DNA of 64,000 nucleotides, from NCBI RefSeq assembly GCF_964355755.1, contig NC_092674.1, forward strand, positions 11,723,001 through 11,787,000, in the 5' to 3' direction. Below the pieces are notes generated by a model. It worked only from the letters and a program-made list of their open reading frames with translations, did no database searches and was not told where the DNA came from. The DNA comes from Antedon mediterranea. Lineage: Eukaryota; Echinodermata; Crinoidea; Comatulida; Antedonidae. Shown piece by piece: positions 5,854 to 55,983 of the stretch; position 1 is the first letter of the stretch; each line of letters begins with the position of its first letter. The position numbers and the translations under genes were made by a program.

Positions 5854-5877
5854 TTCCAAGATACATCACTTAACAAC

Positions 5878-8501: not shown

Positions 8502-8508
8502 TGCTGAT

Positions 8509-21100: not shown

Positions 21101-21487
21101 TCAAAGGTCACCTAGATCTTTCTCCTGCTTTACCTCATATAATAAATTACCAGCCACTGAATACAAGAAATTGGGATTATCACGACCATAATGAAATACC
21201 TTACACTTAGTGTCATTAAATGGCAATTGCCAAAAATTAGACCAATGGGAAGCACTGTCAATGTCCCTCTGAAATAAATCCGCATCATCAATGTTATTGA
21301 CCACTCTATACAACTTTGTGTCGTCAGCAAATAAACGAATACTAGACTCAACAAAATCAGGTAAATCGTTAATGAAGATTGAGAATAAAATTGGGCACAC
21401 AGCACTACCCTGTGGAATTCCACTTAATACTGGAGCCTGTGATGATAATTGATCATTAACACTAACTCGTTGTGTTCTATTCGACAA
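21101..21487 (-). pseudogene. CR1-type reverse transcriptase, catalytic core piece
   Basis: A 128-residue frame with SGIPQGSAVCPILFSIFIND and the catalytic FADDTK block, then a WQLPFNDTKC segment typical of CR1 polymerases. Upstream motifs (21490-21990) are in other frames and interrupted by stops. The thumb is in the separate frame 20762-20995. Confidence 0.88.
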
Positions 21488-22104
21488 ATAATTAGAGAAT
21501 CAACCTAGTAGATTTCCCGTAATACCAAAACCTTTCAATGGTGTGGCAAACTATCAAAAGCCTTTTTATAGTGTAAATAGACACAATTAAAACTATCAAG
21601 GTTATCCAAGTTAGTAGTACAATTCTCAAGGACATCAAGTAGTTGTAATGCACATACCTTGTCTGAATCCAAATTGTTCGTTGCACAAAAGACCATTACT
21701 CTCAAGATACATTACAAGTTTATTCCTAATAATCCTTTCCATCATTTTCCCTATAACTGACGTTAAACTAACCGGTCTGTAGTTAGCCGGGTCCTTCTTT
21801 TTACCTTTTTAAAAGATAGGTATTACAGTTGCCACCTTCCATGATAGAGCAATTTGATCCTTTAATTCAATCAAAACCCGTGGGTGACAGCCATCAGGGC
21901 CAGCTTACTTATCCATAACTAATTTAGACAACAGCTTTTTAATATCTTAAACTCAATATCTGACAAAGAAGCCTCAATCTTTTTATCAAGATTCATAACT
22001 TTTATGTGAACCGTTTTCCAGTTGTTTCGAAAATCTGTGTTTTGAGTACTGATGAATTCCTCCACTTCCTTCTTTCCTGCAATAAAAAAAAAGTAGTCAT
22101 GTTA

Positions 22105-26989: not shown

Positions 26990-28030
26990 AAAAAACGTAA
27001 GTTTACGAATTTTATTCGACTTTGGATCATCCAAAAGAAAATTTACTATTTAATATAATAGAATTATCTTTAACAACACAACTATTAAAAAGAAGACAAA
27101 TACGTGAGATAAATCCATTATTGGTAGCATTGACACGACAATACGGCACATAAAGAAGATTACATTTAGAATTACGAGTACGATAACCAACAGCTTTAAC
27201 ATGAAAGGAAAACAAGGAGATAACATTAAAATTGAAACGTGAATTCATACATTTATACAAAAACTGAAGATCGAACATGGAACGACGAGAGACAAGAGAA
27301 GGGAGAGAGACAGATAAAGGAGGGCAGTGACAAGAAGAATACACAAGACGGGTACTATGAGCAGACGTAAACGAATTAGACACGCCAGGATAGTGTTCTG
27401 CGCTTTTTCTCTGCTTGTTGTTGTTCTATGTAATTTATGCTTTTTGTATTGTTTTTGTTTTATTTTTTCTGGATAATAAATGAATATGAATATGAATATA
27501 ACACTACAGTATTCAAGATGGGGACGGACAAGTGAAACATATAAATGAATTAAAGTATTAGAATTTTTAAAACACCAGCAATTACGACGAATCATGCCCA
27601 ACATTATGTTTGCTTTATCAGCAGCATCAACTTGAGGAATAACATTTAAGTTACAGTAGATAATAATACCAAGATCTTTATGACGGTCAATTCTTTCCAA
27701 AACATGATTATTAATGCTGTAATCATATTTGATATATTGTCTTTTCTTTATAATCGTCATAATTTTGCATTTTGGTAAGTTTAAACTCAGCTTCCAGGTG
27801 GTGGTCCATCTGAAGAGAGTACAAAGGTCATATTGAAGGGAAACAGTATCATTAGGGCCATTGATAGTATTAAAGAGTTTAAGGTCATCCGCAAAAAGTA
27901 AGTAAGAAGAAGAAAGATTAGAAGGGAGGTCATTGATAAAGATATTAAATAATACGGTACAAGGATCGAGCTCTGGGGGACTCCAGACAAAACAGCTAGT
28001 AACACAATGCTTGTAATTTTGTATCAAAAT
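26990..28030 (-). mobile_element. CR1/Jockey-type LINE, decayed, minus strand
   Basis: RT palm with LFNIFINDLPSN and LLFADDLKLFN (about 27860-27960), then YVSLVRPHLEYCSV near 27500, and C-terminal residues LQFLYKCMNSRF near 27240. A polyadenylation motif CGAATAAAATTC lies at about 27010. The frame is interrupted at about 27385-27497 by a short foreign segment ending (plus strand) in AATAAATGAATATGAATATG, probably the tail of another LINE or SINE. It is truncated at the 5' end near 28030 and inactive. Confidence 0.8.
27245..28027 (-). pseudogene. LINE reverse transcriptase piece
   Basis: A 260-codon frame. The first 170 residues are RT: FADD near residues 47-50, then DLCTLFRWTTTWKLSLNLPK and HKDLGIIIY. 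The rest is read through the inserted tail and out of frame. The proper C-terminus is in the overlapping frame 27027-27383. Confidence 0.82.
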
Positions 28031-28149
28031 TCAGCGGCTTCGAGTTGAGCTCATTTTGTTATGTGTTACTGTATATTTAACATTATTCTATAATGTCATA
28101 GAAAAATGTTCAATACTATTTATTAGTATTGTTTACAATCTATGCTTGG

Positions 28150-28471
28150 TTACTGGTGCTTTTCCTTCTTTCTTGTTCCTGTTATGTGTTTAAGATTAGT
28201 ACCATGTTGTTTTCTGCGCCGCCACTTAGATCCCCGACGTCTTCTCATTTTATCCAAAAATGTTGTATGTACTGTTCCATTTTCTATTTTTCTTTCTGGC
28301 CATGTTGGGTATCTAAAAGTAATGTTTCTGTAGGTTGACCACCGACGGAAAATAGCCTTTTCAGTAATAAAGAGATGACCACCATGCTTTCTGTACTCAC
28401 TAATATTATAATAGCTGCATTCTAGCGTACTATCCTCATAATAGTGATATGGCACACTAGAGTTTGTAGAA
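28150..28471 (-). CDS. st6galnac-like: ST6GalNAc-like copy 1: motif III/VS terminal exon
   Basis: 322 bp, acceptor CTAATTTAG. PYHYYED gives motif [18 protein letters not shown] contains the motif VS H-x4-E pair; NITFRYPTW follows. Family members usually end near here. This one adds about 45 residues rich in Arg/Lys ([14 protein letters not shown]) before the stop at 28150. Confidence 0.9.
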
Positions 28472-30663
28472 CTAAATTAGAAAATATGTATACAATTTTA
28501 GAATTTGTATTTTTAACATAATGCAGTACCACATTTCAAACCATTTTAAAAGTTATCTGTAACACAACTCACATGAATGGGTATGTAAAATGTATTAAAG
28601 AGGAGAATAAAAATGAATGAAGCTTATGATAGCCACACTGCTATTTACGATGCTATTATTTATGTACTGATTGATATTTATGTATTGTCTGTATGTATGT
28701 ATGTATGTATTATTATTATTGTTGTTGTTGTTGTTGTTTAACATATAATTATTTCAGAGCTTCTACTCTTTACACATTACTAAGACGATAATACGATGGC
28801 ATTAAATAATGAAAACGCACAGAAAACTAGTGTTTTCCAATGAAATGTTTGCTGTATTGCGTTACCTGCAAAAATCCTCATATGCCATCCCGTATACAGT
28901 CATACTAGGGCAGAATTCCATAGCATGCACCATTGTATACCATCCGGTTGTCAGCATAGTTTGAGATTCTTCTCTGTTGTAACAACAATAATATTATTGA
29001 TGATTAAAAATATTGATGATAATTAAATAATAATACAAATGATAGGTAGAAAATAGCAAGAACTGGCTTTTGAAATCAAGAGAATCCACAGAGCAAAAGT
29101 TAGAGTGGTCTTGGAACAATTTAAAAAAAATGCAAAACCATGGCATGAAAAGTTAAATGTACCAGACATTGTATATAGGGAGCGCTCAAATGTCGGCCAT
29201 CCTGGGACCAGCACACATATTGAGGAAGGTGTTATGTCTCTAAGCTGTGGGAAGCGGCAACAACAACAACAAAACACTGGGCATAAACAAAATCAAATTA
29301 AAATATTCATACAAACATCTCTTAGGCCTAATGTTCTAAAGTAAACTTGATTAATCCTATGCTTCCATATTGAATCAATGTCGATTAGGTGAGAGGCAAA
29401 ATGCCAGTGGCTCGGTTATATATGGCGCATTATATTATACAGTACAGGCTTTTTTTTAAACAAGCAAAAGTCATCAACCATATTTCTCAAAGTGCTTACA
29501 AAAAGTTGAACGTATAATAGAACCATTTTAATATAACAATTAAACGTTTGTCATGCAGTAGAACTAATACTTTACTTACATGATACACACTTAACCACAC
29601 AGTAAGGACACATTATGTAGAAGTAATAGTAATAATAATTTTGCCATTTTTTTGCCAGTAATAATGTAGTACCTTGTAAATCCCGTTTCTTGTTTAAATA
29701 GGTCTTCAGCTAAAACCATTCTGGCGGGTAGAGCAGAGTATATTTTAACATTTTGGTAAAGGTTGGCTAGAAGAAAGGCGTAGCGGTATTCTTCGTTTGT
29801 GAGCTTCGGGACTTCTTCAGTCATACTCATCCAACTAATGATACTCATCTGAGTTCGAGTTGTGTTGTTTACTAAGAGCTCTCGCCGTACGGTCTCACTG
29901 CTCAGACCCTTGTTAAAGTTACGGTGGCCCACAACCCTGATGGTCGTGCGAGTGCCCACATCATGTTCAAAGCCAACCACAGAGGCTAGATTCATTCGTA
30001 TGACACAGTGATGTTGATCAATCTCTCTTCCAGCGTTTGATCCTAATAAATGACCAGAGCTTGTCACAACAGCACAGTCATTGCAAATAAGGCGAAGACT
30101 CTAAGAATAATGATCAATAATTAATATTAAATTTAATTTATTATGTTTAATTATTTCGGGTTTTAATCTTCAAAACTTCAATTTCAATTTAATTTATATC
30201 CACAATATAATAACATATAATTATACAGGATAATAAAAGCAATGAAGTAATGTTTTGAAATGTTTTATATCCGGAAGTATGTTAATGACATGAATCACAT
30301 GAGGAAAGTAGGTTAGTGTGGGATCAAACTCTGCCTACAAACAGAGAACATGATCTGTTATAAGATGGTGATGTAGTTTGAAGGTTTTCATGGCGAAATC
30401 AACATGTTGAGATAAAGTTTGAGGTAAAAAAAACTGTTGAGTTTCTCAAATTTATATATTTCCTTATAAGTAGCCAGATAACATCATAAACAATTACCAA
30501 TTAATACCTTATTAGCAGCTAGACTAACATATCCAGGAAATTTTTTACTTATGAGTGATTTTACTCCGAGGGTTAACGTACCATTAAAGAAAGTTAACGT
30601 AAACAACGCCGTCATCACACATGAGTAACAGATTACAAGCAGAAATGGTATTGTTGAATGTTT
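28150..30663 (-). CDS. st6galnac-like: ST6GalNAc-like sialyltransferase, copy 1 (four exons, apparently intact)
   Basis: A GT29 sialyltransferase, a Golgi type II membrane enzyme that moves sialic acid from CMP-sialic acid to a GalNAc-linked acceptor. Exons on the minus strand are 30508-30663, 29673-30100, 28866-28973 and 28150-28471. All introns are GT-AG, and exon phases (0/0, 0/2, 2/2, 2/stop) join into one 337-residue frame, the normal family length. In order it has a hydrophobic anchor (about residues 5-26), a short stem, sialylmotif L ([15 protein letters not shown]...), sialylmotif S ([15 protein letters not shown]), motif III (YHYY) and motif VS (H-x4-E in HLFITE). The motif III/VS region (TEKAIFRRW, then P-x-W) points to the ST6GalNAc III-VI group. 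No ATG lies in frame before the anchor, so a small upstream exon with the start codon is expected. The C-terminal tail is basic. AATAAA at 28119-28124 is a possible poly(A) signal. Confidence 0.88.
28472..28865 (-). other. Intron 3 of copy 1 with microsatellite
   Basis: Contains (GTAT)n, (ATT)n and (GTT)n runs at 28689-28739. GT-AG ends are present on the minus strand. Confidence 0.7.
28866..28973 (-). CDS. st6galnac-like: ST6GalNAc-like copy 1: sialylmotif S exon
   Basis: 108 bp, acceptor ACAACAG and donor TTTTGCAG|GTAAC. Too short to stand out as an open frame. It encodes [20 protein letters not shown] and YGMAYEDFC: motif S with the second conserved Cys that pairs with the motif L Cys. 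Confidence 0.93.
29673..30100 (-). CDS. st6galnac-like: ST6GalNAc-like copy 1: sialylmotif L exon
   Basis: 428 bp, acceptor ATTCTTAG and donor ACAAG|GTACTA. It encodes motif L with the conserved Cys (NDCAVV), [12 protein letters not shown] and FEHDVGTRT, which bind the donor nucleotide. It continues to EDLFKQETG before the splice. Confidence 0.93.
30508..30663 (-). CDS. st6galnac-like: ST6GalNAc-like copy 1: membrane anchor and stem exon
   Basis: 156 bp (52 codons), acceptor TTTCTACTAG and donor AAG|GTATTA. It encodes the hydrophobic segment [20 protein letters not shown] and ends [11 protein letters not shown], the start of the catalytic region in this family. The equivalent exon of copy 2 (42956-43183) is homologous and has an acceptor at the same place, which supports the call. 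Confidence 0.75.
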
Positions 30664-31041
30664 CTAGTAGAAATATAATGATAATAATAATCAGTTCTTC
30701 AAAAAAGATGAGTAAATATAATCGATATCGAATATTTATAACATTCTGTTTCTACTACTTCCATCTTCTTTCTATACAATAACATAATTATATATTATTA
30801 AATGGTATGCTCGCTTCGCTCGCGTACCAGGGGTCTCCACAGATGGTTCTCGAATTCAATAGAACCCACGGGGATATTATTGGGACACTAAACAAAAACG
30901 GAAGTGTCCCCTTAATTGGGGTATTCGGAAATAAAGACAAAATAACGAATACTGGATACCATAAAGAACAATTCATTGATGTGGACGAAACTTGGAGAAA
31001 TTGAGGAGAAATGGAAATTTAACTACGGGGATTGGGCGGTA
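30664..31041. repeat. Fragments of dispersed repeats upstream of copy 1
   Basis: 30802-30829 (ATGGTATGCTCGCTTCGCTC...) is the element B-type palindromic terminus. 30875-30935 carries GTGTCCCCTTAATTGGGGTA, a repeat word common in marine invertebrate genomes. A 65-residue frame at 30807-31004 runs through these repeats and is not a gene. The start codon exon of copy 1 could lie in or beyond this stretch but I could not find it. Confidence 0.55.
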
Positions 31042-31379
31042 CGCGAAATTTTCTTTACTCGTCAGAAAAGGCAGAAATCATGAATAATTCATTACCTTAA
31101 TTATTTTCTATTATAAAGAATTGCAAGATAGCTGATCTACTTCCTAAATATACTAAACCTAACCCTCTAAATAATCTCTCTCAACTATTTAAAAAAAACA
31201 TGTTCTTGAAAGACCTCGAAACGAGGGCTCCAGCGTAATAGGTTAAAGCCTTTACCACTAGACCAAACATTTCGGTTGGCAAACGCTGTTTACACAAATT
31301 ATTTAATATCTCTGCAAGCTTATATAGCGCCCTCTCTAATGTGGCATATTATTATCTGACGAGTAAAGAAAATTTCGCG
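31042..31379. mobile_element. MITE with 24-bp perfect inverted ends
   Basis: CGCGAAATTTTCTTTACTCG(TCAG) at 31042-31065 is exactly inverted at 31356-31379. The 338-bp unit has no coding frame. GGCGG occurs just outside both ends and may be a target duplication, but this is uncertain. Confidence 0.8.
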
Positions 31380-32084
31380 GGCGGCACGGGGTGGTGATGA
31401 TGGAACCGCAGTCATAAAGTTGATTGTATTTATACAGTATAAGAGAACCACACTAAATAAATACAGTAAGACATTCGACGATCGGAGCATGTTTATGTTA
31501 TGTTGTGTTCCGTTATGTTTTCACCATTGGCAGCCATTGGAGTGGAGATGTATCATGGAGGTTGGTGTTTGCCTTCCAATCCCAAGGTCCGGAGTTCAAT
31601 CTTGACTTAGTGCCATATATGGTTATAACTCACACTCTTTCATCTGCACTTTCCTAAGCCTCAAATGAGACTTAGTTTAACTGCATGATGCCTATTATAT
31701 ACTCTACGATAGAACCATTTGATTTCATAAATTTTTATTTGATGTTGTATGAGTAGGTCTAATAAAGTGTATTTTGTATTCTTGTTAGTGTAACCATGTA
31801 CACATCAGTAGGCCTTATAATTCGCTGGTTGGATGGTGACCGAAAACGTGAGCTATAGCCGCAAAAATGACCTAGTTTAGTTCTTATAAGCCTAACTACA
31901 CTCCCAGTTCGATGAATCTTCATGAATCGGTCGTGGATCTAAAATTATCCGAAAGCCACTCTTAGTGTTAAATAAGTTTACTGTTCTGTATACAACACCC
32001 GACACTATTTCTAATCTAAGCATTTGTCGAAATAATGCTCCCTCTATTTACCAAGCAATTTGAAGCTTCAAATACAGATTGGAA
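31380..32084. other. No gene seen; possible tRNA-derived SINE at 31540-31620
   Basis: 31548-31612 reads TGTATCATGGAGGTTGGTGT, then CCAAGGTCCGGAGTTCAATC, which weakly fits a tRNA A box and B box as in SINEs. No tail repeat or target duplication is clear. The rest is unassigned. Confidence 0.35.
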
Positions 32085-32704
32085 TATGTTCCATTCATCG
32101 CAAATCAATACATTTGTATAAACGTATATTAAATTTGAAACCAAATTTTCGTTTATATTGAAGGACAAAACTACGTTGAAACTTACTCAACGTTTCATGC
32201 ATTTTCACCGCACTTTTTCAAGGTAGTGATGTCAGCTTGTTTTGCCCACACTGATCATGGCATAGTCACGTGATGTTATTGTGACATGCGCCCTCTATTA
32301 ACGTATATTAAATCTATCAAAAGGGTACTTTTTTTTTAGAAAATCGGCATGTCTTCAACATTATGATGCTGTACTCGAGCGGTTCAACCAGTTTTCAGCT
32401 ATTAAAAACAATTATTGTAGGAGGAGATAGGAAAATGCGAAGCATCCTCGCATTATTGTGTGCGGGTATTTTTCAATTGTATTAGGCAATGTATACCACG
32501 ATCGAAAAACACCCTATTTGGGGCAAATCGTTGAATCTAAATTCGTTTAAATTGTCAATAACTAATTATCTATCTCAATTTAATTAGTAAACAGGGTTAC
32601 ATCAGGTGGTTAAAATCATTACCCAAAGTACGAACCAACTTTATATACCATCGAGTAAAAATTCTAGAAGTAAGGCATGATTTACCGAATTTTCCCTAAC
32701 GTAA
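32085..32704 (+). repeat. Element B, partial copy, with a 165-bp insertion
   Basis: Aligns with 49055-49514 (GTTCCATTCATCGCAAATCA ... CGTAAATGTATATATAG). It is interrupted at 32135-32299 by a 165-bp sequence flanked by the 14-bp direct repeat AACGTATATTAAAT (32121-32134 and 32300-32313). The copy at 49091 shows the uninterrupted site. Confidence 0.82.
32135..32299. mobile_element. 165-bp SINE-like insertion with 14-bp target duplication
   Basis: Ends TTGAAACCAAATTTTCG and GCGCCCTCTATT, with CACGTGATG near the right side. The 14-bp duplication fits LINE-machinery retrotransposition. No tRNA promoter boxes are evident. Confidence 0.7.
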
Positions 32705-33745
32705 ATGTATATATAGACTAGATGGACATTCTCGAATAAACAGTAATTTCAGCGAAACAAAACTGGCGATTTCAAATGTACGTACCGCAGGACTATAATA
32801 CATTGTCGTTAACAGAAACGAATAAATAGACACGATGATGTATGCAGTCAACTAAAATTAGTACCCTGGGAATTACTTACCGAAAGAGAAACCAAATTTT
32901 TGATTTTTGGACTCATTTAAACAAACCCAATTTGTGTTTTGTATGTAACATTAAGGTTGAGGGAAGGTACAAAGAGGAACAATTTTTAAACATATTCTTT
33001 TTCCACTCAGCAACGAAATATTTTTGTTCATGTTTTATAGGCCTATAAATAATATACCACTAAATACAGTAAAATATTTGCGATTTAACACTTTGTTAAA
33101 ACTGTCATAGTCGATTGAAAGAGTAAAGTACGTTTATATTTTTTTGTAATTACTAATTAATACAAACGTTGAGAAGCAACTGTTAGTAATATAGTTTATT
33201 TGTATATTATGTGTTTATAATCTAACAGTAGGGCTTCCCACACTCACAGTAATACAGTTTATTTGTATATATGTTGATATTATATCTAACAGTACAAACA
33301 CTCACAGTAAGAAATTTGCGATTCAAATGGCGACCAAAAGTGGTTAATAAGTATTTACAGTATTGTATAGTATTGCAATACTCTATCTTTTGGTTTTAAG
33401 TTTATTCTCTAAGGGACTATAGATTTACCTACCTTTGTTAAACCATGGAGGTATACCTCCATTAAACCGAATAAGTTGGAATGTTTTTCAGCCATTAAAA
33501 ACAATTATCGTAGGAGGAGATAGGAAAATGCGAAGCATCCTCGTATTATTGTGTGCGGGTATTTTTCAAGATGGACATCCATTAGAGAGTGTATACCACG
33601 ATCGGAAAACACACCTATCTGGGGCAAATCGGGTGGTTAAAATCAGTACTGAAAGTACGAACCAACTTTATATACCATCGAGTAAACATAATAGAAATAA
33701 CGCGCGATTTACCGAATTTTGCCCTTACGTAAATTTATATATAGA
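32705..33745 (+). repeat. Element B, copy 3 (internally deleted)
   Basis: Starts ACTAGATGG, directly after the end of the preceding partial copy, so the two lie head to tail. Collinear with 47393-49514 but lacking the inner half of the palindromic terminus and a block near 33130. Ends TTTATATATAGAT. 33443-33470 holds an inverted AACCATGGAGGTATACCTCC motif. Confidence 0.8.
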
Positions 33746-34114
33746 TTATCTCCTTCCTTATTTCTAATTATATCCCAGTGCCAGATTTAGTATGCCCGTA
33801 GACCTACTAATAATTTTCTAAAGTTTTGATATTATTGTTTAGTTTTGTTTTCTCTTTTGTAGCTTGAACCAACACTTTTTTCATTTATTTTTCATTCAAT
33901 CACTTAAGTGTTAATCAGTAATATTTTTGAGTTGTTAAAAATCTAGGTTTTTCATAACTTTCGTATATAACTTTTATATATATTATAACGAACCTTATGT
34001 AAAAGAAACAAATATCAAATTGTTTAGTATAATTAAGATCCAGATAATTACAAAATGATCGGGCTCAAACTACATTTAAATGTTACTCAATCTCTTTCAT
34101 AAAATATGAATTAG

Positions 34115-34735
34115 CTGATTTACAAAAAAGAGGCATAATATCATTAATTATTAAGAACAATTGGAGACCAATTAAATATCTATTATAAAATCATTGCTAA
34201 TGCTGTTGCAAACAGATTAAAACCCAGAATTGGTAAATTAATAGATACAGACCAAAAAGGTGTACATCAAAGGGAGATTTGCCGGAGAGAATGTTCGGCT
34301 TGTTGAAGACATTTCAGAATATACACTGATAAGCAGAATAAGGAAGGGGTTCTTGCTTTTTTAGATTTTTCGAAGGCATTCGATTCAATTGATAAATATT
34401 TTTTAATGAAGTAATTGTCAAAATTTGGTTGTGGTAAAGATGGGTGAAAACCCTATATTGTAAAAGTAAGTCTATTACTACAAATAATGACTGGTTATCA
34501 AACGTTTTAATACGAATAGTCGGATTAGAAAAGGATGTCTTCTATCTTCATTACTTTTTTATTAGCTGTTGTTCTAATGACATAGTGAGCTATTGGGTTG
34601 AAAAGGTAAATATGTTTGAAAAAATTAAAAAAAAAAAAAAGAAAAGAAATCTAACTCTATTTGGTAAAGTAACCGTAACAAAAATATAGCATTGTTAAAA
34701 TGAATCTATATAATGCCAGCATTATTGACGTTCCA
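34115..34735 (+). mobile_element. Tx1/L1-type LINE fragment
   Basis: Plus-strand RT blocks in shifting frames: NWRPI, NRLKPRIGKLIDTDQKG (about 34208-34262), KEGVLAFLDFSKAFDSID (34345-34395) and, near the end, KRNLTLFGKVTVTK (34640-34688). Wording matches the LINE at 60505-64000 closely, so they belong to the same or a sister family. Many stops and an internal deletion make it inactive. Confidence 0.8.
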
Positions 34736-34740
34736 AAGCA

Positions 34741-36055
34741 TAATATAATTTACGTCAGGGCAAAATTCGGTAAATTGCGCGTTACTTCTAGAATGTTTAT
34801 TCGATGGTATATAAAGTTGGTTCCTACTTTCGGTGCTGATTTTAAACACCTGATGTAGCCCTGTTTACTAATAAAATTGAGTTAGATAGTTATTGACAAC
34901 TGAAACGAATTTAGGTTCAACGATTTGCCCTAAATAGGGGTGTTTTTCGATCGTGGTATACATTGTCTAATGGATGTCAATCTTGACAAATACCCGCACA
35001 CAATAATACGAGGATGCTTCGCATTTATCTATCTCTTCTACGATAATTGTGTTTAATAGCTCAAAACCGATTGAACAGCTCGAGTACAGCATCATAATGT
35101 TGAACACTATTTTGATAGATTTAATATATACATTTATACAAATGTATTGATTTGCGATGAATGGAATATTCCAATCTCTCAGTCTCTCCTAGTATAATTA
35201 TTTGGTTTAACACAAGCCCTTGGAGGATACAAATAAAACCTTTATATAATATATAGTATTTCAATACTGTAAATACGTATTAACCATTTTTGGTCGCCAT
35301 TTCAATCGCACATTTCTTACTGTGAGTGTGGGTAGATGTAAACACATATACAAATAAATGTATTACAGTGAGTGTGGATACTGTAATCACCTGTAATCAC
35401 CTGTCTTGTCGGGCTCGTAAGTAGACCATACATTTCTGTATGGTACATGTCATGCCCTCCCAATTTCATCAAGTCATCACTGCATGGTTTGTTTTTTTTT
35501 TGGTTTGTTTTTTTTTTTCATTCGTTTCCTTGATTTAAATTCTTATGCAATACACTTTATCCCATAAAAGTAAATTTGTTGTATTTTCTTTCAATGAATT
35601 TATCAAGTTTATTTTTAAAGGCGTTTACTGTGGTGGTGTTAACGGCTTCCTCTGGTAGACTATTCCATAGGTTAACAATTCTGTAAGAAAAATTGTACTT
35701 GCGGATATCCAGTTTAGGTCGTCGCTTATATATGGTGTATCTATGTCTTCTTAGGTTTCTCTCGTATGTTTTCATAGGGAAGAAGTTACGCATTCCACTA
35801 CCACTTAGGCCTGTCACCATTTTAAAAACTTGAATCATATCTCCTCGTAATCTTCTAAAGGCCAATGTTGGTAGATTTAGTCGTTTTAGGCGTTCTGTAT
35901 AATCCAAGTCTTTTAATGATACTGATAGATGTATAAAGGCATAATATACAAATGAACTTTATTACTGACAGTTGCTTCTCAACGCTTGTATTAATTAATA
36001 ATTACTCAAAATATAAACGTCGTAGTGGTGTATCTTTACATGTACTTTACTATTT
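34741..36055 (-). repeat. Element B, copy 4 (with LINE insertion)
   Basis: Reverse-oriented relative to 47393-49514: begins AATTTACGTCAGGGCAAAAT, passes GATCGTGGTATACA, and ends in the CAATCGAGTAACTG region, without the palindromic terminus. Interrupted by a LINE at 35384-35917. Confidence 0.8.
35384..35917 (-). mobile_element. 5'-truncated CR1-type LINE with 7-bp target duplication
   Basis: The 116-codon minus-strand frame 35557-35907 is the RT C-terminus: ERLKRLNLPTLAFRRLRGDM, then RIVNLWNSLPEEAV and FKNKLDKF. The 3' end (plus-strand left edge) has direct repeats of ATCACCTGTA. GATACTG flanks both sides (35377-35383 and 35918-35924), and element B elsewhere lacks the insertion. Confidence 0.88.
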
Positions 36056-37024
36056 CAATCGAGTAACTGACACGTGCCACTTTTTCGTATTCACGTACAG
36101 CAATTTTTATGAAAATAAGGAATAATTAACTTAAAACTAGTTGCATCTATCATTCCGTCGGATCAATTTTTCCATTGAAATATACATCCAACCAATCGTG
36201 ATCAATGCATCTAGCGCGCACATTTCGAACAGCCGGGGCCGGTATTGTCTTCTTACGCCAAGATATAGTTACAAGTTCTTTTGTGCGTTTGAGTGTTAGT
36301 TTTGTGGTATGATGTCTCCCGCGTGATTATGGATGATCGGGCATGTTATAAACGCTATTGTAGTAAACGCCAGCAATGTCGAAACAACTGCAGTAATTCA
36401 CCAGTAATGTAGTAAAACATCCAGCTAATGTAGAAACACCAACAGCTTATGTAGTAAATAACATGGCCACAATTTATACTTAATGTGTATAAAATATAAT
36501 ACCATAAGAAAATTATAATTATGTTCGTGTAAAAAGAAAGTGTTAAAGAAATGCTATGAACATATTTAAAGTATAATTGTCATTAATAATTGGTATTAAT
36601 TAAAATTATAATTGGTTTGTTATGGCTATTTGAGTATTAAATACTTGTAAATAGTTATGAAAATGTAATTTTGTTTTATAATTATTATTATTATAATTAT
36701 TATATCTTAATGTATGTATAAGTAAAAATTATAAACATCTGTATTAATTGAGTAGAGTAGAGAAACAAGTATTAATGAAAACTGTGCATATAAAGATAAA
36801 TATTATTTAAGAAATAAAAGTGGGTAAAATCCCCACAAAAGAGTGAAAAGAAATAAGATTATGAATTTGAATGAATTTAACCCATAAGTACGTTTACATG
36901 CTAATTAAAAATCCATCATGCAACTGGTTTCCCTAGGCTAAAAATTCATTTATGAATTGAAAATGACGCACAGTTTTTGTTTGAACTACGACTAAAGTTT
37001 GACGTAAGGTTAATTGTGCTATGT
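36056..37024. other. No gene seen; weak 25-27-bp repeats
   Basis: At 36350-36470 the phrase CAGCAATGT(C/A)G(T/A)A(A/G)AA recurs about five times with drift. The rest is AT-rich and unassigned. Confidence 0.5.
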
Positions 37025-38289
37025 TACATTATTCGTTTTCTTATATTCAAAAGTATTTTCCATGACTTGTCTTTTGTAAAATACAACAATAGAGCATTTC
37101 CAACAAACAGTAGGCTTACTAAACAAACAGGCGTATACAATGAGAAAAAGACACCACGAATAATACGGTGTATTAAAGTAGAGTTGATGTTATTGTTGTT
37201 CGATTTATAAAGCGCTTATACAATCGAAAGATTGTCCCAAAGCGCTGAGAAAAAAAAAAGAAAGAAATTACAAAGAAAAAAGATGGGTTTTTAAGAGTGT
37301 TTTGAAAACTATGGTAGAGGATGCATTTTTAATATTTTTTTTAAAATAATAAAATAATTAATAATAATAATCAACTTTTCTTTTCCCAAAGTCATTGGCA
37401 ACCGGCCATACCCATATTACTATTTACAATGGATAACTGACATGATAAATATTTGGCAAACCAAAAATTTATTTGAGCGAGCAGTTCCTGAAATTGAAAA
37501 GCAAACCGGGACAAAAGTATGAAGAAAAAGTGTAATAGATTTTCATTTAGATCCACATGCACATATTATAGGCCAGACTTTTAACCATACGTATGCCCTA
37601 CAGTATAGTTATTGTAGAATTGTGAAATATCGTCTGATTTAAGTGTATTTCGTTTATTCTCAAAATACGAAACTCCTAATATATTCTAATTTCCGAAGGA
37701 AATATTCTTTGAGTCAATTTTATTACTTTACTAGTGGTATAGATTTGTTTTCATTCAGAGACAACAGAATGTACAAAATAATAATAATATCTTTGCGCTG
37801 TACACAAACACGATCAAGTGATGCATTAGTCCCATACTATACTTTGTTCTACAGATTGGGATTTCTAACACGAAGTAAATTCCTACATTCGTATTCCAGG
37901 CAATGCCTGCCTTTAATTATAATTATATTTAGGCCACAGGCACATAGATTCACAAATATATTACAGTACATACCGGTACGTGGATTCACTTATTCAACGA
38001 TACAAAATAAATGCTTTGAGAGATTAACGTAAGCACATTAATTTGTTAGTAACTTTGAAAAATAGGGATTGCGCTAATATTAAGGACTCAGTAAGGTTTT
38101 GTCTTATAAGTCAGACAAACAAGACAAATATTTACATTACAATAGTGAATAGATATACTCACATATGTATTTTGAATTCTTCTACAATACACCGGCGCCA
38201 TTGCAAAGTTACGTAAAGACTGTAGAAACAAACAATGGATATTTACAAAAATAGTGATAACTCATCAACAAAATAAACGAATATATACC
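37025..38289. repeat. Dispersed repeat A, copy 2, left part
   Basis: Aligns with 1-1304, and its first 100 bases with the inverted piece at 14554-14640. Extends further left than copy 1, which is cut by the window start. Confidence 0.8.
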
Positions 38290-38718
38290 TTGATATATGT
38301 AGTTCTTTGAGAGTAAACCAGTTATGTAAATAAAACTTACGTTTGCAAGACAGTTTCGTCTAGCTGTCAGCTTGACTTCCTCAGTTGCTATGCGTTATGA
38401 CGTGGATTTATCTCCTTTCCATCTACTGGATGTTTTTGGTGTATAGGGGACCAGTTGTCGTCAGTAGCTGATCATAAATATGAGATAGTTGGTGCGCGCC
38501 TTCGTCTCTATTCATCTTTTTATTTTTATTTTGCTTTCTTATACTGATGCTTTCTTTAATTTACATCTATATTATCCCAGTTCGGTATGTGATTATGTTT
38601 GATCATAATATGGTCCGTGATCGCTGATTTATGTACAATGGAGGACGAAACTTTCCGCGATGCGCGTGTCTGGATGTTCTGTGTGTTTTCCTCAACATAT
38701 TTCTTGTGTTCTTTAATT
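38290..38718 (-). mobile_element. Penelope-like element 3' end (GIY-YIG endonuclease tail)
   Basis: On the minus strand, 38711 down to 38556 reads EHKKYVEENTQNIQTRASRK, then SAITDHIMIKHNHIPNWDNI. After a shift comes NRDEGAHQLSHIYDQLL. These are the conserved end of the endonuclease domain of Penelope-like retroelements. The following GAGGAAGTCAAGCTGACAGC segment is the typical 3' untranslated part. It interrupts repeat A; copy 1 lacks it. One frameshift and loss of everything upstream make it inactive. Confidence 0.8.
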
Positions 38719-39355
38719 CTGGTTAATTAATTCATTATTAACAATAAACTATTTAGGCTAAATGTTACCTCTAAAATCGAAAATACAGTGGGCTCATTAC
38801 CTTTATCTTGAGGTCAAGTATACTTGGTGTGTATTAACCATACGGCATAATAAGTTTAATCGTCAGTCGGAACATAGAGATGTGCACCCGATTCTCGTAC
38901 TGTACTGTGTCTAGAGACAATAAACTGCATGGCTGTTTAGCGTTAAGTGATTATAGTCCCACTATAATATCCCTATGGTCAGAAGCTTATTGACTTTGTG
39001 TAGTCATGCCTTTCAAATAATTTATACGGAGGCCTGTTAGTGCCATATTCGACTACACATTCTTCATACTATAATATTTTGTTAACTGTTTCACAAGTGC
39101 CATATTCAGTTATTTTTTTCAAATTATGGGGCTATAGTTAAACATTGACTCTACATCAAATTTAAGTAATTAAATTATCACATCTGACTGAGTACAGTAA
39201 GACAATGTTTGTACTGTAGTATAGTCATTACTGTAGGTCCATGAATAGTTATTGTGTAAATAACACGCAGACTGAGTAATTACATTTATAGATTTGGCAT
39301 TTTCCCAAAAAAATTCAAAAAATAATATAAATTGATCTGTCCCTGCACTAATTAC
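38719..39355. repeat. Dispersed repeat A, copy 2, right part
   Basis: Aligns with 1860-2311, ending at AATTGATCTGTCCCTGCACT. Confidence 0.8.
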
Positions 39356-39942
39356 AATATAAAACGAAACAAATAGTTTAAAAAGCTTTATTCAAATACT
39401 AGAGTATAATAAATAGTGCATAGAAAACGATAATGTGAATAAGAAAGACAGATTGATAATGTTATTTCTTCTTTCGTATCAACCTGTTTATAAATAGGGA
39501 CAGTAGTAACACAATTAAATTAAATTTTATTATAGGACCTACTACTAAAATATACTTGTTTCCCCAATCTCGAAAGGCTGTTCCAAACTTAAAAGCTCCA
39601 GTGTACTGTCCATGTGGCTCGTGTTAACCCAGTTCATCTGGGGGTTACGCTAGTGTATTGGTCCATCTCAGCCCATGTCGTTGTGGACAGCAGACGAACG
39701 AGCGCCGTTTGATGGAAACAAATTCGTCTTGTGGAAAATCGACTTTAGGGGAGAAGAAAGTTGTTGTTCACAAGTCGCAGGTTATTCACTCAACAATCGT
39801 TGCATTAAATCAAATAACATGCTAAAAACACGTAGTCTTGTTTGCCTCGATATGTTCTCATTTGCCAATACAGATACCATTATTATTAAACATGGACATT
39901 CTATTATGAAGTTCAGGCGTAAATACATAGCTAAATTCTAAA
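39356..39942 (-). other. Sequence downstream of sialyltransferase copy 2, possible 3' UTR
   Basis: An AATAAA signal on the minus strand at 39386-39391 could end the transcript of copy 2. An 88-residue plus-strand frame (39675-39941) shows no domain and is not called. Confidence 0.4.
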
Positions 39943-40486
39943 TTAAGTATTTCTTATATTACCCTTTCTCGTCAGTCTTTTTTTTTTACGTTTTTTCTTT
40001 AATTTATTATTTACCGAAACATTATGCTGCTGTTTAGATAATAAGATATTGCTTTGTAAATTATTACTTTGTTTATATTCATTCAAAGCAGGCCAATGTT
40101 CAAGACTTAAATTTTCTTCGGTAATATTGCTTAACGGCTTATGTCCTTTAACTCTAGTTTTATTCCTTTTACCTTGTTTTTTTAATATTTGACGATTTAC
40201 ACCATGTTGATCTGTTACCTTTTTCCGATGTTGACTTAACTCTTTTCTTTTGGAGTTAAACTTGTCCAAAAACGGAGTATGTAAAGTTCCATTTTCCTTC
40301 TTAACTTTCTTTGGCCACACAGGATGTCTAAAAGTAATGTTTTTGTAGGTTGACCACCGACGAAAAATTGCCTTCTCAGTGATGAAGAGATGGCCACCCC
40401 GTTGTTTATTTTCACTCTTATTATAATAGGTACATTCTGATATTGTCTTATCGTAATAGTGATATGGGACCCGAGTATTCGTAGAA
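39943..40486 (-). pseudogene. st6galnac-like: ST6GalNAc-like copy 2: terminal exon with long basic tail
   Basis: 544 bp after acceptor [31 protein letters not shown] and NITFRHPVW match copy 1. The frame then stays open for about 120 more residues, rich in Lys/Gln/Asn and ending LKKKRKKKRLTRKGNIRNT. It has no internal break, unlike the upstream exons. Confidence 0.88.
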
Positions 40487-41218
40487 CTATAAGATATCAA
40501 AATAAATAATAATGATTATTATTAACATTGAGTTTCTAAGCGTGTTTTGAAGCGGTGAAGGCAGTTTGGGCAACTGCCGTATCCGTATACGTATATGGGT
40601 AAAACGTGTGTACTACGTCACACATTCTATGTAGCTTGACATCATACCGTACGTACATGAAACCGGTTTTTGATGCCTTCGACGTGCGGATTGCACACGT
40701 TTATTCATTGAACATTTATTTGTTAAACGTGGCACAGTATGATCACATTTTTACCAGCAACACTTAAACATAAATTATTCAAGAAATTCAGAGTTTTGAT
40801 TTAAAAATGTTCCAAGAAAACGAAAACAAAAAAATGTTGGCTATGCTTACATTCCTTTAGCCCTGTAACGATACGTAAAATGATTTTGTCCAAATAAAAA
40901 CAACGCTATAAATTCAAACGTATCTGTATACGTGTTGTGACACTGATAGGTATTCGTATACGTGAGTTTGCCCAAACTCTCTAGCAGTAATATTATTAGG
41001 TATGCAGATATCTGTGAATGGATGGAAATAAAATGACCCTATTAGAACTTTCGTCTTCGAAGCAACACAGCTAATATTGGAACGTAATACATCAACACTA
41101 TTTATTATAGTTCATAATCTTATTGTGTCAACATTGTTTTTTTAATAGTGATTAGAAGTATAATGGACAAGTGTTAAAACACTTCTAGATCATGGACTTA
41201 TCAGTCTCGGTGTGTTAC

Positions 41219-41326
41219 CTGCAAAAATCTTCATATACCATCCAGTATACAGTCATACTAGGACAGAATTCCATAGCATGCACCATTGTATACCATCCGG
41301 TTGTCAACATTGTGCTTACCTCTTTT
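41219..41326 (-). pseudogene. st6galnac-like: ST6GalNAc-like copy 2: sialylmotif S exon
   Basis: 108 bp, the same length as in copy 1, with acceptor TTTAACAG and a good donor TTTTGCAG|GTAAC. Encodes [20 protein letters not shown] and YWMVYEDFC; the Gly after Tyr in copy 1 is Trp here. Confidence 0.9.
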
Positions 41327-41909
41327 CTGTTAAATTATAATACATATTATTATCTATAAGATTAATCATTTCGATGGTTGATTGTAAGCAACCTTTGAAA
41401 TTCAAACGAGATAGGTTTTAGATATTTTTTATAAATAAATAAAGCAGTAACAAGAATTCGTATGGTCGATAATAGATTATTTTACTACACGATTAATTAG
41501 AAATAATTTAAAATAAGCCGATACCACAAAACAACAACAACAGGCCTATACCAAGAATGCACTGGTAAGACATTACATAACCTGTTATATTAACCTGCCA
41601 TTTTAACCCCAATAATAACAATTCCGGTAGTACTGGAAAAATGATTACTAAAATCTACCAAAAATATAAAATTATGACGTGGTCACCATTAGAATTCGAT
41701 AATAATTATAAGATCTACTGTATATATTAAAACCATTTTTTCCGATTATGAAGCACTAACACGGTCCTGATAACAAAACAAACACACACACCCACACACA
41801 CAAAACCCAAAATCAAAGGAGGTCTGAGTTACAGGCCAACACTAATTAAATTAGTATTGTTTTTTAGAAGCCTAATATTTAAGTAAACGCACACATATGC
41901 TTGTGTTAA

Positions 41910-42338
41910 CTTGTATAACCAGTTTGGTTTTTAAAGAGGTCCTCAGCTAACACTATTCGGTCTGGTAGAGATGAGTATATTGGAACATCTTTGTAAATGT
42001 TTCCTAGAAGAAAGGCGTAGCGGTATTCTTCATTGGTTAACTTAGGAACCTGTTTGATTATATTCATCCAACTGATAATAATCATTTCTGTCCGTGTTTT
42101 TTTTGTTTACAAGGACCTCTCGTAGCACACTCTTTTTACTTAGACCTTTGTTAAAGTTCCGATGGCCCACGACTCGTATAGTCGTGCGAGTGCCAACATC
42201 ATGTTCAAAGCCAACCACAGAGGCTAGATTCATTCGTATGACACAGTGGTGTTGATCAATCTCTCTTCCAGCATTTGATCCTAATAAGTGTCCAGAGCTT
42301 GCCACAACAGTACAGTCATTGCACGCAAGATGGAGTTT
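41910..42338 (-). pseudogene. st6galnac-like: ST6GalNAc-like copy 2: sialylmotif L exon
   Basis: 429 bp, one more than copy 1, because of the A8 run. Motif L is intact before the shift; the original frame then stops at 42042. After the shift the sequence still aligns to copy 1 codon by codon up to EDLFKNQTG. The donor reads ACAAG|TTAAC. Confidence 0.88.
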
Positions 42339-42433
42339 CTTAAAAGAATATTATTTATAATGAATTATTTAAAAAAAGAAAATGCTTTAATGTATTTGTT
42401 TTTAATACATTATTTCAGATGAAATAACAAGCG

Positions 42434-42814
42434 CAGTAGAGCCCCTATTAATAAGACATATTCTGGACCCAACACATTGTCCCATTAATATGGGTTTTTG
42501 TGGGAAACATATATACCAAAATAAACAATTTCAGATATTTTTACCACCTGTTAGATTTTTATTAATAATATAAATGTACATAATTATTTTGTATTACATG
42601 TTGTTTTTGAGATGAAGTAAATAATTATTTTGATTTGATTTGATTGAATCAACCATTGGCACACTCAAACTTGTCTTTTTCCCCTTAATATGGGTGTCCC
42701 CTGAGTAGGGAGTTCACCTTAGCGTTAAAACATGTATTGCCCCTCGTTTCACAAGAAAGTGCCCTTTAAAGGAGTGCCCGCTAAACGGGGATGTCCCAAA
42801 AAGGGATTCTACTG
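42434..42814. mobile_element. MITE of the GTGTCCCC type in intron 1 of copy 2
   Basis: Left end CAGTAGAGCCCCTATTAA, right end inverted as CAGTAGAATCCCTTTTT. Interior words such as GGTGTCCCCTGAGTAGGG and AGTGCCCGCTAAACGGGGAT are typical of a repeat family widespread in marine invertebrates. It contains a LINE 3' tail at about 42560-42648 ending in GATTTGATTTGATT. Confidence 0.7.
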
Positions 42815-42955
42815 TATTTTATTTGCTAACGACATTGATATTTTTATGCAATTAAAATGTGAAATTGTGAATGCTTTTAATTTTCCTTTTCTTTCTTTGT
42901 AGGTTCATTTTTATAATCTGTAAAAGATTGATATTGTTACATAAAATGATAATAA

Positions 42956-43183
42956 CTTGTTGGTTGCCAGGCTAACGTATCCAGGAAATAGACCAACGTC
43001 GTCATCATCATTCGCCCTGAATGTGATTGGTTGTCTTGATGTTGGATTCTAAACGTCACGTGTTGGTATTGGCGTTGTATTTCTAATTGTTCGTTTGATA
43101 GTGGTGTTACCAAATTTGAAGATGAGCACGAAAGTTAACACGGAGGAGTAAATAATTGTCAGCCAGAATGCCTTTGAAATATT
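42956..43183 (-). pseudogene. st6galnac-like: ST6GalNAc-like copy 2: anchor and stem exon
   Basis: 228 bp after acceptor TTACTACTAG. Encodes FWLTIIYSSVLTFVLIF (anchor), a stem 24 codons longer than in copy 1 with an acidic NDDDD stretch, and [11 protein letters not shown] at the end. An in-frame TAG lies at 43049-43051. The donor position reads AAG|TTATT. Confidence 0.75.
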
Positions 43184-43283
43184 CTAGTAGTAAAATAGAG
43201 AGACAACTTTATTTACGATTTTGTTTGACCTATAACAACATTACATAACAACTGTCCCTATATTACTAATAGTAGTAGTAATA

Positions 43284-43770
43284 GGGAGGTTTTGCAATCT
43301 TACGAATACAATAACGAAAACGGATACGTCACGCACACGTATTCGTTTTTGTAAGCCAGTAAAAATCTGTTTCGCATGGCAAAGAACTATTGAGGGCGCC
43401 GTCCAAAATATGACTGCGGTAAATTTGAGCGAAGCGCAGGTACGTGTTGCTTGGTGCTTGGCTGCCTAGGCCTAGCGTAACATCAAAGCGAGTGAGGACT
43501 TTAAAAACTATGAAAATTGACCTGGCATTTTAGTAAATTACTTTCAGTAAAAGTATAATTATATTATAATCATGAATCATTCCTGAATCAAATGCAAAAT
43601 GTGCAAAATACATCAAAAACTATACTCATTTTGTAGTTACGAATATGACTGGTGATATTCGTCAACACGAATACGCTTAAAGAATATGAAATGGGGATCA
43701 GCTCAAAAGTTTCACAAATTTGTGACGTATCCGTTTTCGTTATCGTATTCGTAAGGTTGCGAAACCTCCC
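43284..43770. mobile_element. MITE with 49-bp inverted ends
   Basis: GGGAGGTTTTGCAATCTTAC... at 43284-43332 is inverted at 43722-43770 with three mismatches in 49. TAATA flanks both sides (43279-43283 and 43771-43775), a likely target duplication. The interior has no coding frame. It lies about 100 bp upstream of the anchor exon of copy 2, in the expected promoter or 5' region. Confidence 0.88.
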
Positions 43771-43775
43771 TAATA

Positions 43776-44899
43776 ACAACTGGTGGAGATACGTTTTACA
43801 TAATGGTAACGGTATCGGTAAAAAAGAAAAACATATTTCAGAGTTAAAACGTAAAGCCTACAGTTTTCCATATAATCGCCACGATTTCACAAATTGCTCT
43901 ATAAGTGTTAGCGTCGCCGACGCCGATTTGCCGCAGACAAAAAAAATCAACAAAGCTGTATGGTAATTAGATACACAATGATATCTATGCATTATATAAT
44001 AAATCCAATAGTTCGAATGTCGATCATGTAGGCCAAAATTGTAAGTATCTACAACTCATTAGCTCTCATTTATTCTAAAAAGTATTATCCTTGTTTTTTG
44101 TTGTTTTACAAATTTTTTCAACATTAGCTCAATATTTTAAATTTGCAGTGAATAGAATTTATTGCATAGGGTATTAAAAAATCACACCGAAATTACACTG
44201 AGCTGTTGTATAGCTTTGTAGTTCATAATTATTTTCCATAAGAGATTTCTTTACAGTTCTTTTTTTTTCTTGCAACATGTGAAAATTATAGTTGCATAGG
44301 ACAACTCCGTCATTATGACTGATAATACTTCTCCCAATGAAGTGGTTCACTACTTGGGGGTCAAAGCAAACATACTTAATTGTATTTTAATGTCAGCATA
44401 CGTTGTGTGCCAGATAACATTATTTTATTCCACCTTATCATCACTTAAAAGAGTTATCAAATAGACGAATATAACACGAGCTAATAACATAGTACTGTAA
44501 TTCATATGGAAGTATTTCTAACGCATATTTTTTTTTTCAATGTAAAAGACATTTATTTACGTCCAAAAGACAAAAAAAAAAAAAAAAAAACAGTAATGAC
44601 AGATTGAGATTGTAGGAAAAATAGACGAAGGCGGGATCCCAAAAAATATGAAAATCTTGATTGCCTTGACAAATTAATAATTGATAATATGAAAAATATA
44701 AATAATAAATAAATTAAAAATAATGATATTTAAAAATAAAAACTGTTATACCAGTAGATAAAACTTTAAAAAATAAAGTAAATCTGATGAGCTGCTGATA
44801 GGAGGGCATAACGAATAAGATGACGAAATTAATCAATTAATCTAGCTAGTCACGAAACATGAAACAACGACCATATCGAACACAGCGATTTAGTAACGT
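43776..44899. other. No gene seen; A18 run at 44573
   Basis: AT-rich, unassigned sequence with long homopolymers (for example near 44573-44590). No exon with recognisable protein similarity. Confidence 0.5.
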
Positions 44900-46100
44900 G
44901 ACCAAAAGTGGTTTTTAAATTTTCTTGGAGAATGAGTAGTGGGTGGTAGTACAAGAAATTGAAGGGGGTAAATTGTTATACATGATTGGCCCAGAATATC
45001 TAATACTATGTTGAAAATAGTTGGTTTTGTGGTTGAAAATATAAATGTTATTTATTTTTTTAATGTCATATTTATGAACGATATTATTCGGAGCGAAGAG
45101 GTCGTTAAGATGGCATGGGACAATAGACGGGGTAGCCGAAAAAACAAAAACACCTTTCCGGGAATGTCCGTAAGTTTGTAAAATAAATGGGAGGAATGTG
45201 TCAGTGGATGAGCGCCAGTTATAGTCCTGATGGCTTTTTTGTAGAATAGAGAGTTTATTGATGTTTGTTGGGTAAGTGTTGGCCCAGACAAAATTACCAT
45301 AGCTCATTTAAGAAAGAATGAGAGTTCTATATTGGGTTTTGAGAATACTAATTGGATTCTTGGACACTTTGTTGTCAGTTTCTTGGATATGGGGTGTCAA
45401 TGGTAACGCCAAGAAATGTAATAGTCTTTACAGAGGGGATTTCATGATTATCAATAAAGATAAAGAAGTGGGGACACATCAATACCTTAATACCTCAGTC
45501 AACTGTGGGGTTCCAATGATGTAGCTAAATTTTTTTGATTGAGGTTGAGCTAGTTTGTCAGCAGCAAAGTATTGGGACAAGGGGATAACGTTGGTATTAA
45601 AGGTGTAAAAAAGAATATTTTTGATGGCATAACAAGCTGTAGTGTCATCAGCATAAAGGAACATATTTAGAAAGTTTGAGGTACGGTGGACAACATTAAT
45701 GTAAAGTGTGAACAGCTCAGGAGAGGGCCAAGTAAAGGAGCCCTGGGAGACGTCAACAATTGGAAATAGAGTTCAAATACTTAGTGCATTGGGAGCGAGA
45801 AGTGAGATAGCCTTAAAACGTTTAATGCGGGCCCTCGGATTCCATAATGAGAACATTTAAACATTAGAATAATTATTAAGGTCAATGGTGTCAAAAGCCT
45901 TGGAAAGATCGACGAAAATTACGATTCCAAATTGATGAATTTTGAATGCATGAATAATATTGCTAGTAAGATTGGTCAGCGCCATGAATGTGTTATGTCC
46001 TTTTCTAAAGCCATATTGCCTCTTGAAGAGAATGTTTGTTGATTAATGAAAATGTATCATAAATCTATAATAAAAAAGGCGTTCGAGAATATTGACAGGA
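44900..46100 (-). mobile_element. Jockey/CR1-type LINE, decayed, minus strand
   Basis: Minus-strand RT blocks: IVIFVDLSKAFDTIDLNN near 45940-45875, LYADDTTACYAI at about 45620-45660, SYGNFVWANTYPTNINKLSI near 45307-45240, and the C-terminus to 44915 (SGPIMYNNLPPSI). The order and wording resemble the LINE at 55560-58302 but with many shifts and stops. The endonuclease half is absent. Confidence 0.82.
44915..45307 (-). pseudogene. LINE RT C-terminal piece
   Basis: A 130-codon frame: VWANTYPTNINKLSILQK, then out-of-frame thumb sequence continued in the overlapping frame 45052-45300 (KKAIRTITGAHPLTHSSHLF), and back again near HLNDLF. It is clearly broken. Confidence 0.8.
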
Positions 46101-47392
46101 TGGAAATAGGACCGTAGGGCAATATTTGTAAAGGGTAACGCGCGCCATCTTGAACTTATTTGAAAAACATCTTTGCAGAGGATTTTGATAGCGAAGTTAA
46201 GTTTATTACGGTAGGCTTATATTTAATTTCATTGGCAGGAGAAGGGCGGTAAAGAAACTGATTTGAATTGGGTCGAAAGATAATTAAAACACGTCGAATC
46301 AATTCAGAAAATAACACTATTATTGCTGTCGACAATTCGTGATTTATTGAATACAAAACAACCTCAAAGTCATTCTTTTAGAGTTATTGTGGTCTATTGG
46401 ATTTACATTGTGGTTTTGCTTTGGACGTAGAACAAAGACCGAATCGATATGTTTTGAACAGATTTTTGGAAGGACCAATATAACTTACAAAGACACAAGA
46501 AACTCTGTCGAACAAGTACACACTTCACATAATTTGAACTTTCCTGTACATAAATGTAAATTTGTAAACTTCTAACTATATTCTTTGTAGACAACATATT
46601 ATAAAGATTATGACGTTATTTTGAATCTTAAAAGCATATTGTATGACCAATTCATTAACAATAATAATGATAACATTTAATAAGTAGCCTAAATTATATG
46701 CAGTTTTTCGAAACTTTTATTTAAACCGACAATCACGATTTATTTCAATTCAATTGCCTAACATTACCCTGCCCTCCTTACTCAATATTTGGTAATACAG
46801 AATTTCATATTATATGTATCACATGTGGTGCCTGAATCAACTCCCATAATATTTTCACCAAGCAAAATAAAGTTTAGGTTATGGAATATAATAATTTGAG
46901 ATACATATTACTATGAGACTAAACAAATCTAGATACAGTACCGATAATCATGTGCACTTCATGTTAACGATCGATTAATGTTGTAATGACCCCAATGCTA
47001 CCTTGTGGTACGTACGCCTGCGCTAGTATTGCAAACCTAGGATAAATCTACGTGTTTAAACATAACATTGGTACGTATACTTCCTGTAGGCTAGGCCTAT
47101 TACAGTTCATAAATAACTTAAGTCTTAGTATACTTACGGAATGTAAACGCCCATAGCAACTCATTTAGGGTATTTCGTATTGTGTTAGACGGCGGCAATG
47201 CAATGATGCTTCTTGCTTTCGTCGGTAGCATAAAAGGCCATGGAGAAAAAGAATATGGTATTTCTTCAGTCAAGTTATATATTATTATACGTTGAAGAAC
47301 ACAGATCTACTTACGCAATGTTGAATTGAACTTTACGAAGTCATCATTCGTGCTGTGCCGTATCATTATGTAAACAGATAAAGTTATAGATA
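46101..47392. other. No gene seen
   Basis: Frames up to about 66 residues, none with a recognisable domain. AGGCCT at 47092. Confidence 0.5.
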
Positions 47393-55938: not shown

Positions 55939-55983
55939 TTTGTATACAAACGACAATACTCTCCTCAACAAACGGAGTATTTT

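Follow-up and report, generated by a model that had tools for sequence, protein, structure and literature searches.

Tandemly arrayed GT29 sialyltransferase genes of a crinoid, with an apparently intact member and a probable unprocessed pseudogene

Introduction

Two genes resembling sialyltransferases of the GT29 family lie on the minus strand of a 64,000-nucleotide (nt) stretch of a crinoid genome (C5:11723001-11787000; hereafter the window, meaning that whole stretch). The question they raise is whether one of them, here called copy 1, is an intact gene and the other, copy 2, a decaying one, as had been proposed in a sequence-only reading of the window. We searched a genome of 354 Mb in 18 contigs for relatives of both, modelled their exons, and compared the two genes with their closest paralogues. 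Copy 1 and copy 2 are very probably members of a crinoid GT29 array in which copy 2 is an unprocessed pseudogene and copy 1 is a gene plausibly of the ST6GalNAc III-VI kind. The pair formed by copy 1 and copy 2 is real and represents ordinary gene birth and death; the noteworthy part is the size of the family.

Results and discussion

Copy 1 has an open GT29 reading frame and a conserved exon plan

Four exons were modelled for copy 1, with the following window positions (a slash marks the exon boundary):

30508..30663, minus strand: anchor exon with transmembrane segment and short stem, 156 nt (acceptor ctactag/AAA, donor AAG/gtatta, phase 0)
29673..30100, minus strand: sialylmotif L exon, 428 nt, with the PF00777 match (ttag/AGT ... 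ACAAG/gtacta)
28866..28973, minus strand: sialylmotif S exon, 108 nt (acag/AGA ... TTGCAG/gtaacg)
28150..28471, minus strand: last exon with sialylmotifs III (HYYE) and VS (HLFITE), 322 nt including the stop (ttag/TTC ... CACCAGTAA)

Joined, these exons make 1014 nt that read as a single uninterrupted frame of 337 codons plus the stop, and all introns between them are GT-AG, which bears out the consistent splice sites and phases attributed to copy 1 from the window alone. The GT29 identity was confirmed by running Pfam PF00777 on the joined exons, where the score was 118 bits (curated cut-off 23; expect value 5.2e-34). All four sialylmotifs, L, S, III and VS, are present with the paired cysteines and the VS histidine, and the residues C9, C164, Y187-H188-Y189, H211 and E216 are retained (numbering of the paralogue alignment). 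The membrane segment of the anchor exon reaches a hydropathy peak of 2.2, and the tail after TEKA is Lys/Arg-rich, with 21 Lys or Arg and 4 Asp or Glu among its 68 letters.

When the genome was searched with the copy 1 protein, paralogues were matched exon by exon, with expect values down to 1e-86. Models of the catalytic exons, three per gene, were made for 12 related loci not belonging to the array of copy 1, and for copy 1 itself and the array genes A, B and E introduced below. The motif S exon is exactly 108 nt long, with the same phases, in each related locus where it was located, while the motif L exon, 398-434 nt long (428 nt also in A, B and E), has a phase 0 start and a phase 2 end throughout the modelled loci. 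Since these splice phases are conserved among loci sharing roughly 35-78% protein identity, a chance reading is untenable, and the catalytic exon plan and phases common to the paralogues indicate that the gene model is sound. Copy 1 also keeps 49 of the 52 residues that are invariant in nine non-array paralogues; A and E likewise keep 49, and their departures are largely the same three. The anchor exon is common to copy 1 and B, with the acceptor and the N-terminal residues conserved.

Most likely, copy 1 would encode a Golgi type II sialyltransferase of the ST6GalNAc III-VI kind, consisting of a membrane anchor, a very short stem and a catalytic domain. Catalysis would depend on CMP-sialic acid with the motif VS histidine acting as base, and the luminal tail would be a variable, Lys/Arg-rich one. 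Enzyme activity, linkage and acceptor are predicted here from sequence.

Copy 1 and copy 2 belong to an array of five tandem genes

Both genes proposed on the minus strand were recovered almost base for base, though as part of five tandem genes and not as a pair. The other members are:

C5 about 11683228-11686801, minus strand: array gene A
C5 11714698-11717190, minus strand: array gene B
C5 about 11828037-11831100, minus strand: array gene E, sister of copy 2 and about 65 kb from it

The array spans C5 11.683-11.831 Mb. In a maximum-likelihood tree, A, B, copy 1, copy 2 and E form one clade (support 100/100), within which copy 1 pairs with B (95/96) and copy 2 with E (100/100). The duplication units of the two window genes are, in window positions:

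28112..31867, minus strand: block shared with gene B, the unit of copy 1 (80-97% DNA identity in pieces)
39800..46556, possibly extending further, minus strand: block shared with gene E, the unit of copy 2 (84-95% DNA identity in pieces)

Copy 2 and E are 91% identical at the DNA level over the 3.5 kb containing the gene, and their homology continues beyond the gene, from 39800 to at least 46556, which indicates segmental duplication and not retroposition. The segment whose duplication would have given rise to copy 2 and E measures at least about 7 kb, and the array would grow and decay through events of this kind.

Copy 2 carries five lesions that are absent from its sister gene

The exons of copy 2, in window positions, are:

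42956..43183, minus strand: anchor exon with a stop in the stem, 228 nt, aligned to the intact 228-nt exon of E
41910..42338, minus strand: motif L exon, 429 nt (428 nt in E)
41219..41326, minus strand: motif S exon, 108 nt
39943..40486, minus strand: last exon with motifs III and VS and a long Lys/Arg-rich tail, 544 nt, frame open

Relative to E, they and their splice sites bear the following lesions:

43049..43051, minus strand: TAG in the stem (TTG in E)
42097..42104, minus strand: A8 run with a +1 frameshift (A7 in E)
42955, minus strand: donor +1 G>T after the anchor exon (AAG/GTATTA in E, AAG/TTATTA in copy 2)
41909, minus strand: donor +1 G>T after the motif L exon (AAG/GTAACA in E, AAG/TTAACA in copy 2)
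41242..41244, minus strand: motif S Gly (GGG) to Trp (TGG), the change being at 41244 (VYGM to VYWM)

The stem stop, the extra base in the A8 run and the two donors lacking GT in register had been read from the window, and each proved to be a change relative to E. The accompanying claim that copy 2 keeps its motifs held in part. The motif L exon piece by itself scores 75 bits against PF00777, and the frame through motifs III and VS is open, the last exon differing from that of E by 5 substitutions in 180 codons; motif S, however, has lost a glycine that A, B, copy 1 and E all possess and that does not vary across 12 aligned sequences, a lesion that had been missed. With five lesions absent from E and its introns kept, copy 2 is classed as an unprocessed pseudogene. 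Pfam, the paralogue comparison, the intact sister E and the exon-intron divergence described next all support the proposed contrast, with copy 1 intact and copy 2 decaying.

Exon and intron divergence point to recent disablement of copy 2

Copy 2 and E differ by 2.3% in their exons (30/1306, with one indel) and by 7.8% in their introns (147/1890, with 31 indels). Under free drift of copy 2 since the duplication, roughly half the intron divergence, or about 50 exonic changes, would be expected on its branch alone; as the pair shows 30, constraint probably held for most of that time. The absence from E of every lesion of copy 2 indicates that copy 2 broke after the duplication. Copy 2 would have spent most of its existence under coding constraint, and its disablement appears to be recent. 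On the copy 2 branch, polarised changes comprise 6 synonymous and 6 nonsynonymous ones, and on the E branch 4 and 2, respectively, too few to test relaxation.

Between copy 1 and B, the exonic indels measure 63, 3 and 3 bases, plus a 2-base indel among the final tail residues, whereas 16 of the 20 intronic indels are not multiples of three. This difference between exons and introns suggests that coding constraint is present.

A further exon must precede the anchor exon

Of the four-exon plan proposed for these genes, the exons stood and are shared by paralogues; the anchor exon, on the other hand, is not the first. A conserved CTACTAG acceptor, in which TAG forms an in-frame stop, marks its 5' end in B, E and both window genes, and E and copy 2 have no Met ahead of the membrane segment. 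A short upstream exon carrying the start codon must therefore exist, and the array genes probably have five exons in total, of which four are modelled. In several relatives, too, the membrane segment directly follows an acceptor. The roughly 4.2 kb upstream of array gene A yielded no anchor exon. A 59-bp island lying upstream and common to copy 1 and B was considered as the start exon and rejected; it is AT-rich and makes no coding sense.

Alternative explanations

That copy 2 is intact and its lesions are errors of assembly or base calling is scarcely credible. The A8 homopolymer is a common error site and the exonic differences from E are few (31), but five separate lesions fall in this one gene, four of them plain substitutions outside long homopolymers, and A, B, copy 1 and E are free of lesions in the exons modelled. 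It is also highly improbable that copy 2 still yields a product by alternative splicing, for example from a GT one base upstream of the broken donors. Both donors do read AA/GTTA, with a GT at -1 in each, and the last exon, as noted, is nearly unchanged relative to E; these -1 donors would nevertheless shift the frame, the TAG in the stem would stay, and the frameshifted motif L exon runs into a stop. A copy 2 disabled by the stop, the frameshift, the two donor losses and the motif S missense change, and predicted to give no functional product, is the account we prefer.

Several observations weigh against our reading of copy 1 as an intact gene of the ST6GalNAc III-VI kind. No convincing start-codon exon, and no cytoplasmic tail, was found upstream of copy 1, copy 2, B or E in a scan for ATG-open-GT exons in phase 0, including those conserved between sister genes. 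For copy 1 and B, the ratio of nonsynonymous to synonymous substitution rates (dN/dS) comes to about 0.6 (from 47 nonsynonymous and 21 synonymous changes; Fisher p 0.067), not clearly below 1, so that copy 1 may be under weak constraint; older array pairs have a dN/dS of 0.17-0.28 in their catalytic exons, and the copy 1 protein appears to be changing faster relative to synonymous sites than these pairs. Finally, the solved structure that copy 1 matches best is ST6Gal I (45.7 bits), followed by ST3Gal I (42.3), ST8Sia III (42.1) and, weakest of the four, ST6GalNAc II (33.0); copy 1 thus lacks the closeness to ST6GalNAc II that would mark membership of ST6GalNAc I-II, and a profile of the group is equally undecided among the solved structures. 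The missing start exon and the elevated ratio, together with the five synonymous and eleven nonsynonymous changes that polarise to the copy 1 branch, would suit a copy 1 that is also dying and has not yet met a disabling mutation. We regard this as quite unlikely, as 337 codons are open, every splice site is intact, and the indels that separate copy 1 from B show the difference between exons and introns given above. Assignment of the array to another GT29 branch, an ST6Gal-like one, is unlikely. Its C-terminal half (ETG-x-x-R, TGW, YHYYE, TEKA-[IV]-F-x-x-W, P-x-W) is one that we take to be ST6GalNAc III-VI-like, which is a lead and not a test. ST6Gal I is the top match among solved structures, though the deep split of GT29 groups ST6Gal with ST6GalNAc III-VI, and ST6GalNAc I-II with ST8Sia and ST3Gal (PMC10225777), a division that fits the score order of copy 1 and means that the ST6Gal I score does not separate ST6Gal from ST6GalNAc III-VI. 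As no ST6GalNAc III-VI enzyme is among the structures matched, solved structures do not decide the assignment.

We consider the ST6GalNAc III-VI label plausible for the array. Copy 1 resembles the vertebrate ST6GalNAc III-VI enzymes in its four sialylmotifs, the paired cysteines of motifs L and S, the motif VS histidine, and the membrane segment with a short stem, whereas the tandem array and the Lys/Arg-rich C-terminal tails are found on the crinoid side. The vertebrate enzymes carry out alpha2,6 transfer on gangliosides and O-glycans.

The array is part of a large GT29 family

The genome is taken as crinoid because of a match to an L-type SALMFamide; a search of the assembly for COX1 gave no match. 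Crinoid L-type SALMFamide precursors contain a peptide ending in GLRFHKGAPF-NH2 (PMC9793003), and a degenerate DNA pattern for GLRFHKGAPF has one exact match in the genome (control none), where the frame reads TRGLRFHKGAPFGKRAYD and the peptide is followed by GKR, an amidation glycine and a dibasic site.

A PF00777 scan of this genome gave at least 150 exon matches, with pseudogenes such as copy 2 counted, and at least 94 motif L loci, on contigs C1-C11. Fourteen tandem clusters hold 62 of these at least 94 loci, the largest comprising 14 loci on C9 at 6.93-7.21 Mb and 10 on C7 at 20.77-20.89 Mb; the last motif was matched nine more times with no accompanying motif L close by. Human GT29 consists of 20 genes, two ST6GAL and six each of ST6GALNAC, ST8SIA and ST3GAL (PMC10225777). 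Judged against the human count, this is a large and apparently undescribed expansion, and no description of crinoid GT29 genes was found in the literature searched.

Tandem multiplication within GT29 is known from ST8Sia EX in amphioxus (PMC2564942). The tandem ST8Sia EX genes of amphioxus and sea urchin (PMC2564942) are comparable to the crinoid loci as GT29 genes of invertebrate deuterostomes multiplied by tandem duplication, but they represent another GT29 branch. In the crinoid genome, the C9 cluster looks ST8Sia-like (ST8Sia III is the nearest solved structure to one of its members), and the window array does not. Copy 2 likewise has counterparts in non-functional human GT29 copies such as ST6GALNAC4P1 (PMC10225777). 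The human pseudogenes are possibly retrotransposed (PMC10225777), whereas copy 2 retains introns, and its intact sister lies about 65 kb from it.

Among the gangliosides of echinoderms are ones with alpha2,11-linked sialic acid and, in feather stars, ones with inositolphosphoceramide cores; such linkages and cores are uncommon in mammals (PMC4393008). No description of transferases for alpha2,11-linked sialic acid or for sialylated inositolphosphoceramides was found in the literature searched. The enlarged GT29 repertoire is a natural candidate for making these unusual gangliosides, and the catalogue of at least 94 loci would provide candidate enzymes. We give only an outside chance to a wider proposal, in which the array is one cluster of a crinoid GT29 radiation supplying enzymes for unusual echinoderm sialoglycans (alpha2,11-linked sialic acid, sialylated inositolphosphoceramides), and in which doubly anchored relatives, described below, constitute a new membrane arrangement for sialyltransferases. 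With its pseudogene and intact sister, the array offers a view of turnover in a sialylation repertoire. Copy 2 and E also hold a caution for gene finders, as a broken copy with a nearly perfect last exon could be called as a gene.

C-terminal tails and C6 relatives

After motif VS, the tails of copy 1, A, B and E are Lys/Arg-rich, with 20-37 Lys or Arg against 3-8 Asp or Glu, and the tail of copy 2 is nearly identical to that of E. A different C-terminus was seen in five ST6GalNAc-like C6 relatives (L046, L047, L051, L052 and L053), in which a strongly hydrophobic segment lies at or close to the end of the last exon; in the four modelled, its mean hydropathy is 2.1-3.1. A candidate N-terminal membrane exon is present as well in L046, L052 and L053. 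The candidate anchor exon of L046 (reverse strand of the locus, about 1226-2230 from the 5' end) has a Lys-rich stem of about 300 residues, which is unusually long. If both segments occur in transcripts, these relatives would be doubly anchored sialyltransferases.

Repeats and transposable elements around the two genes

Just upstream of copy 2, window positions 43279-43775 hold an element of about 497 bp with 54-bp inverted terminal repeats (93% complementary); as it is absent at the matching site of E, it was probably inserted after the duplication. Positions 32086-36011, in the interval separating the two genes, are dense in nested inverted and direct repeats; related copies lie at 47.4-49.5 kb and near gene A, and the repeats are probably a family of transposable elements. 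Pieces of a BEL/Pao-type retrotransposon lie at 3317-8826, with DUF1759, Pao peptidase A17 and a weak integrase match that is under the curated cut-off. Reverse transcriptase frames, probably of non-LTR (long terminal repeat) elements, were found at 21101-21499, 27245-28030, 55939-58104 and 62122-62967; the frame at 27245-28030, whose match is just under the curated cut-off, begins 120 bp past the stop of copy 1.

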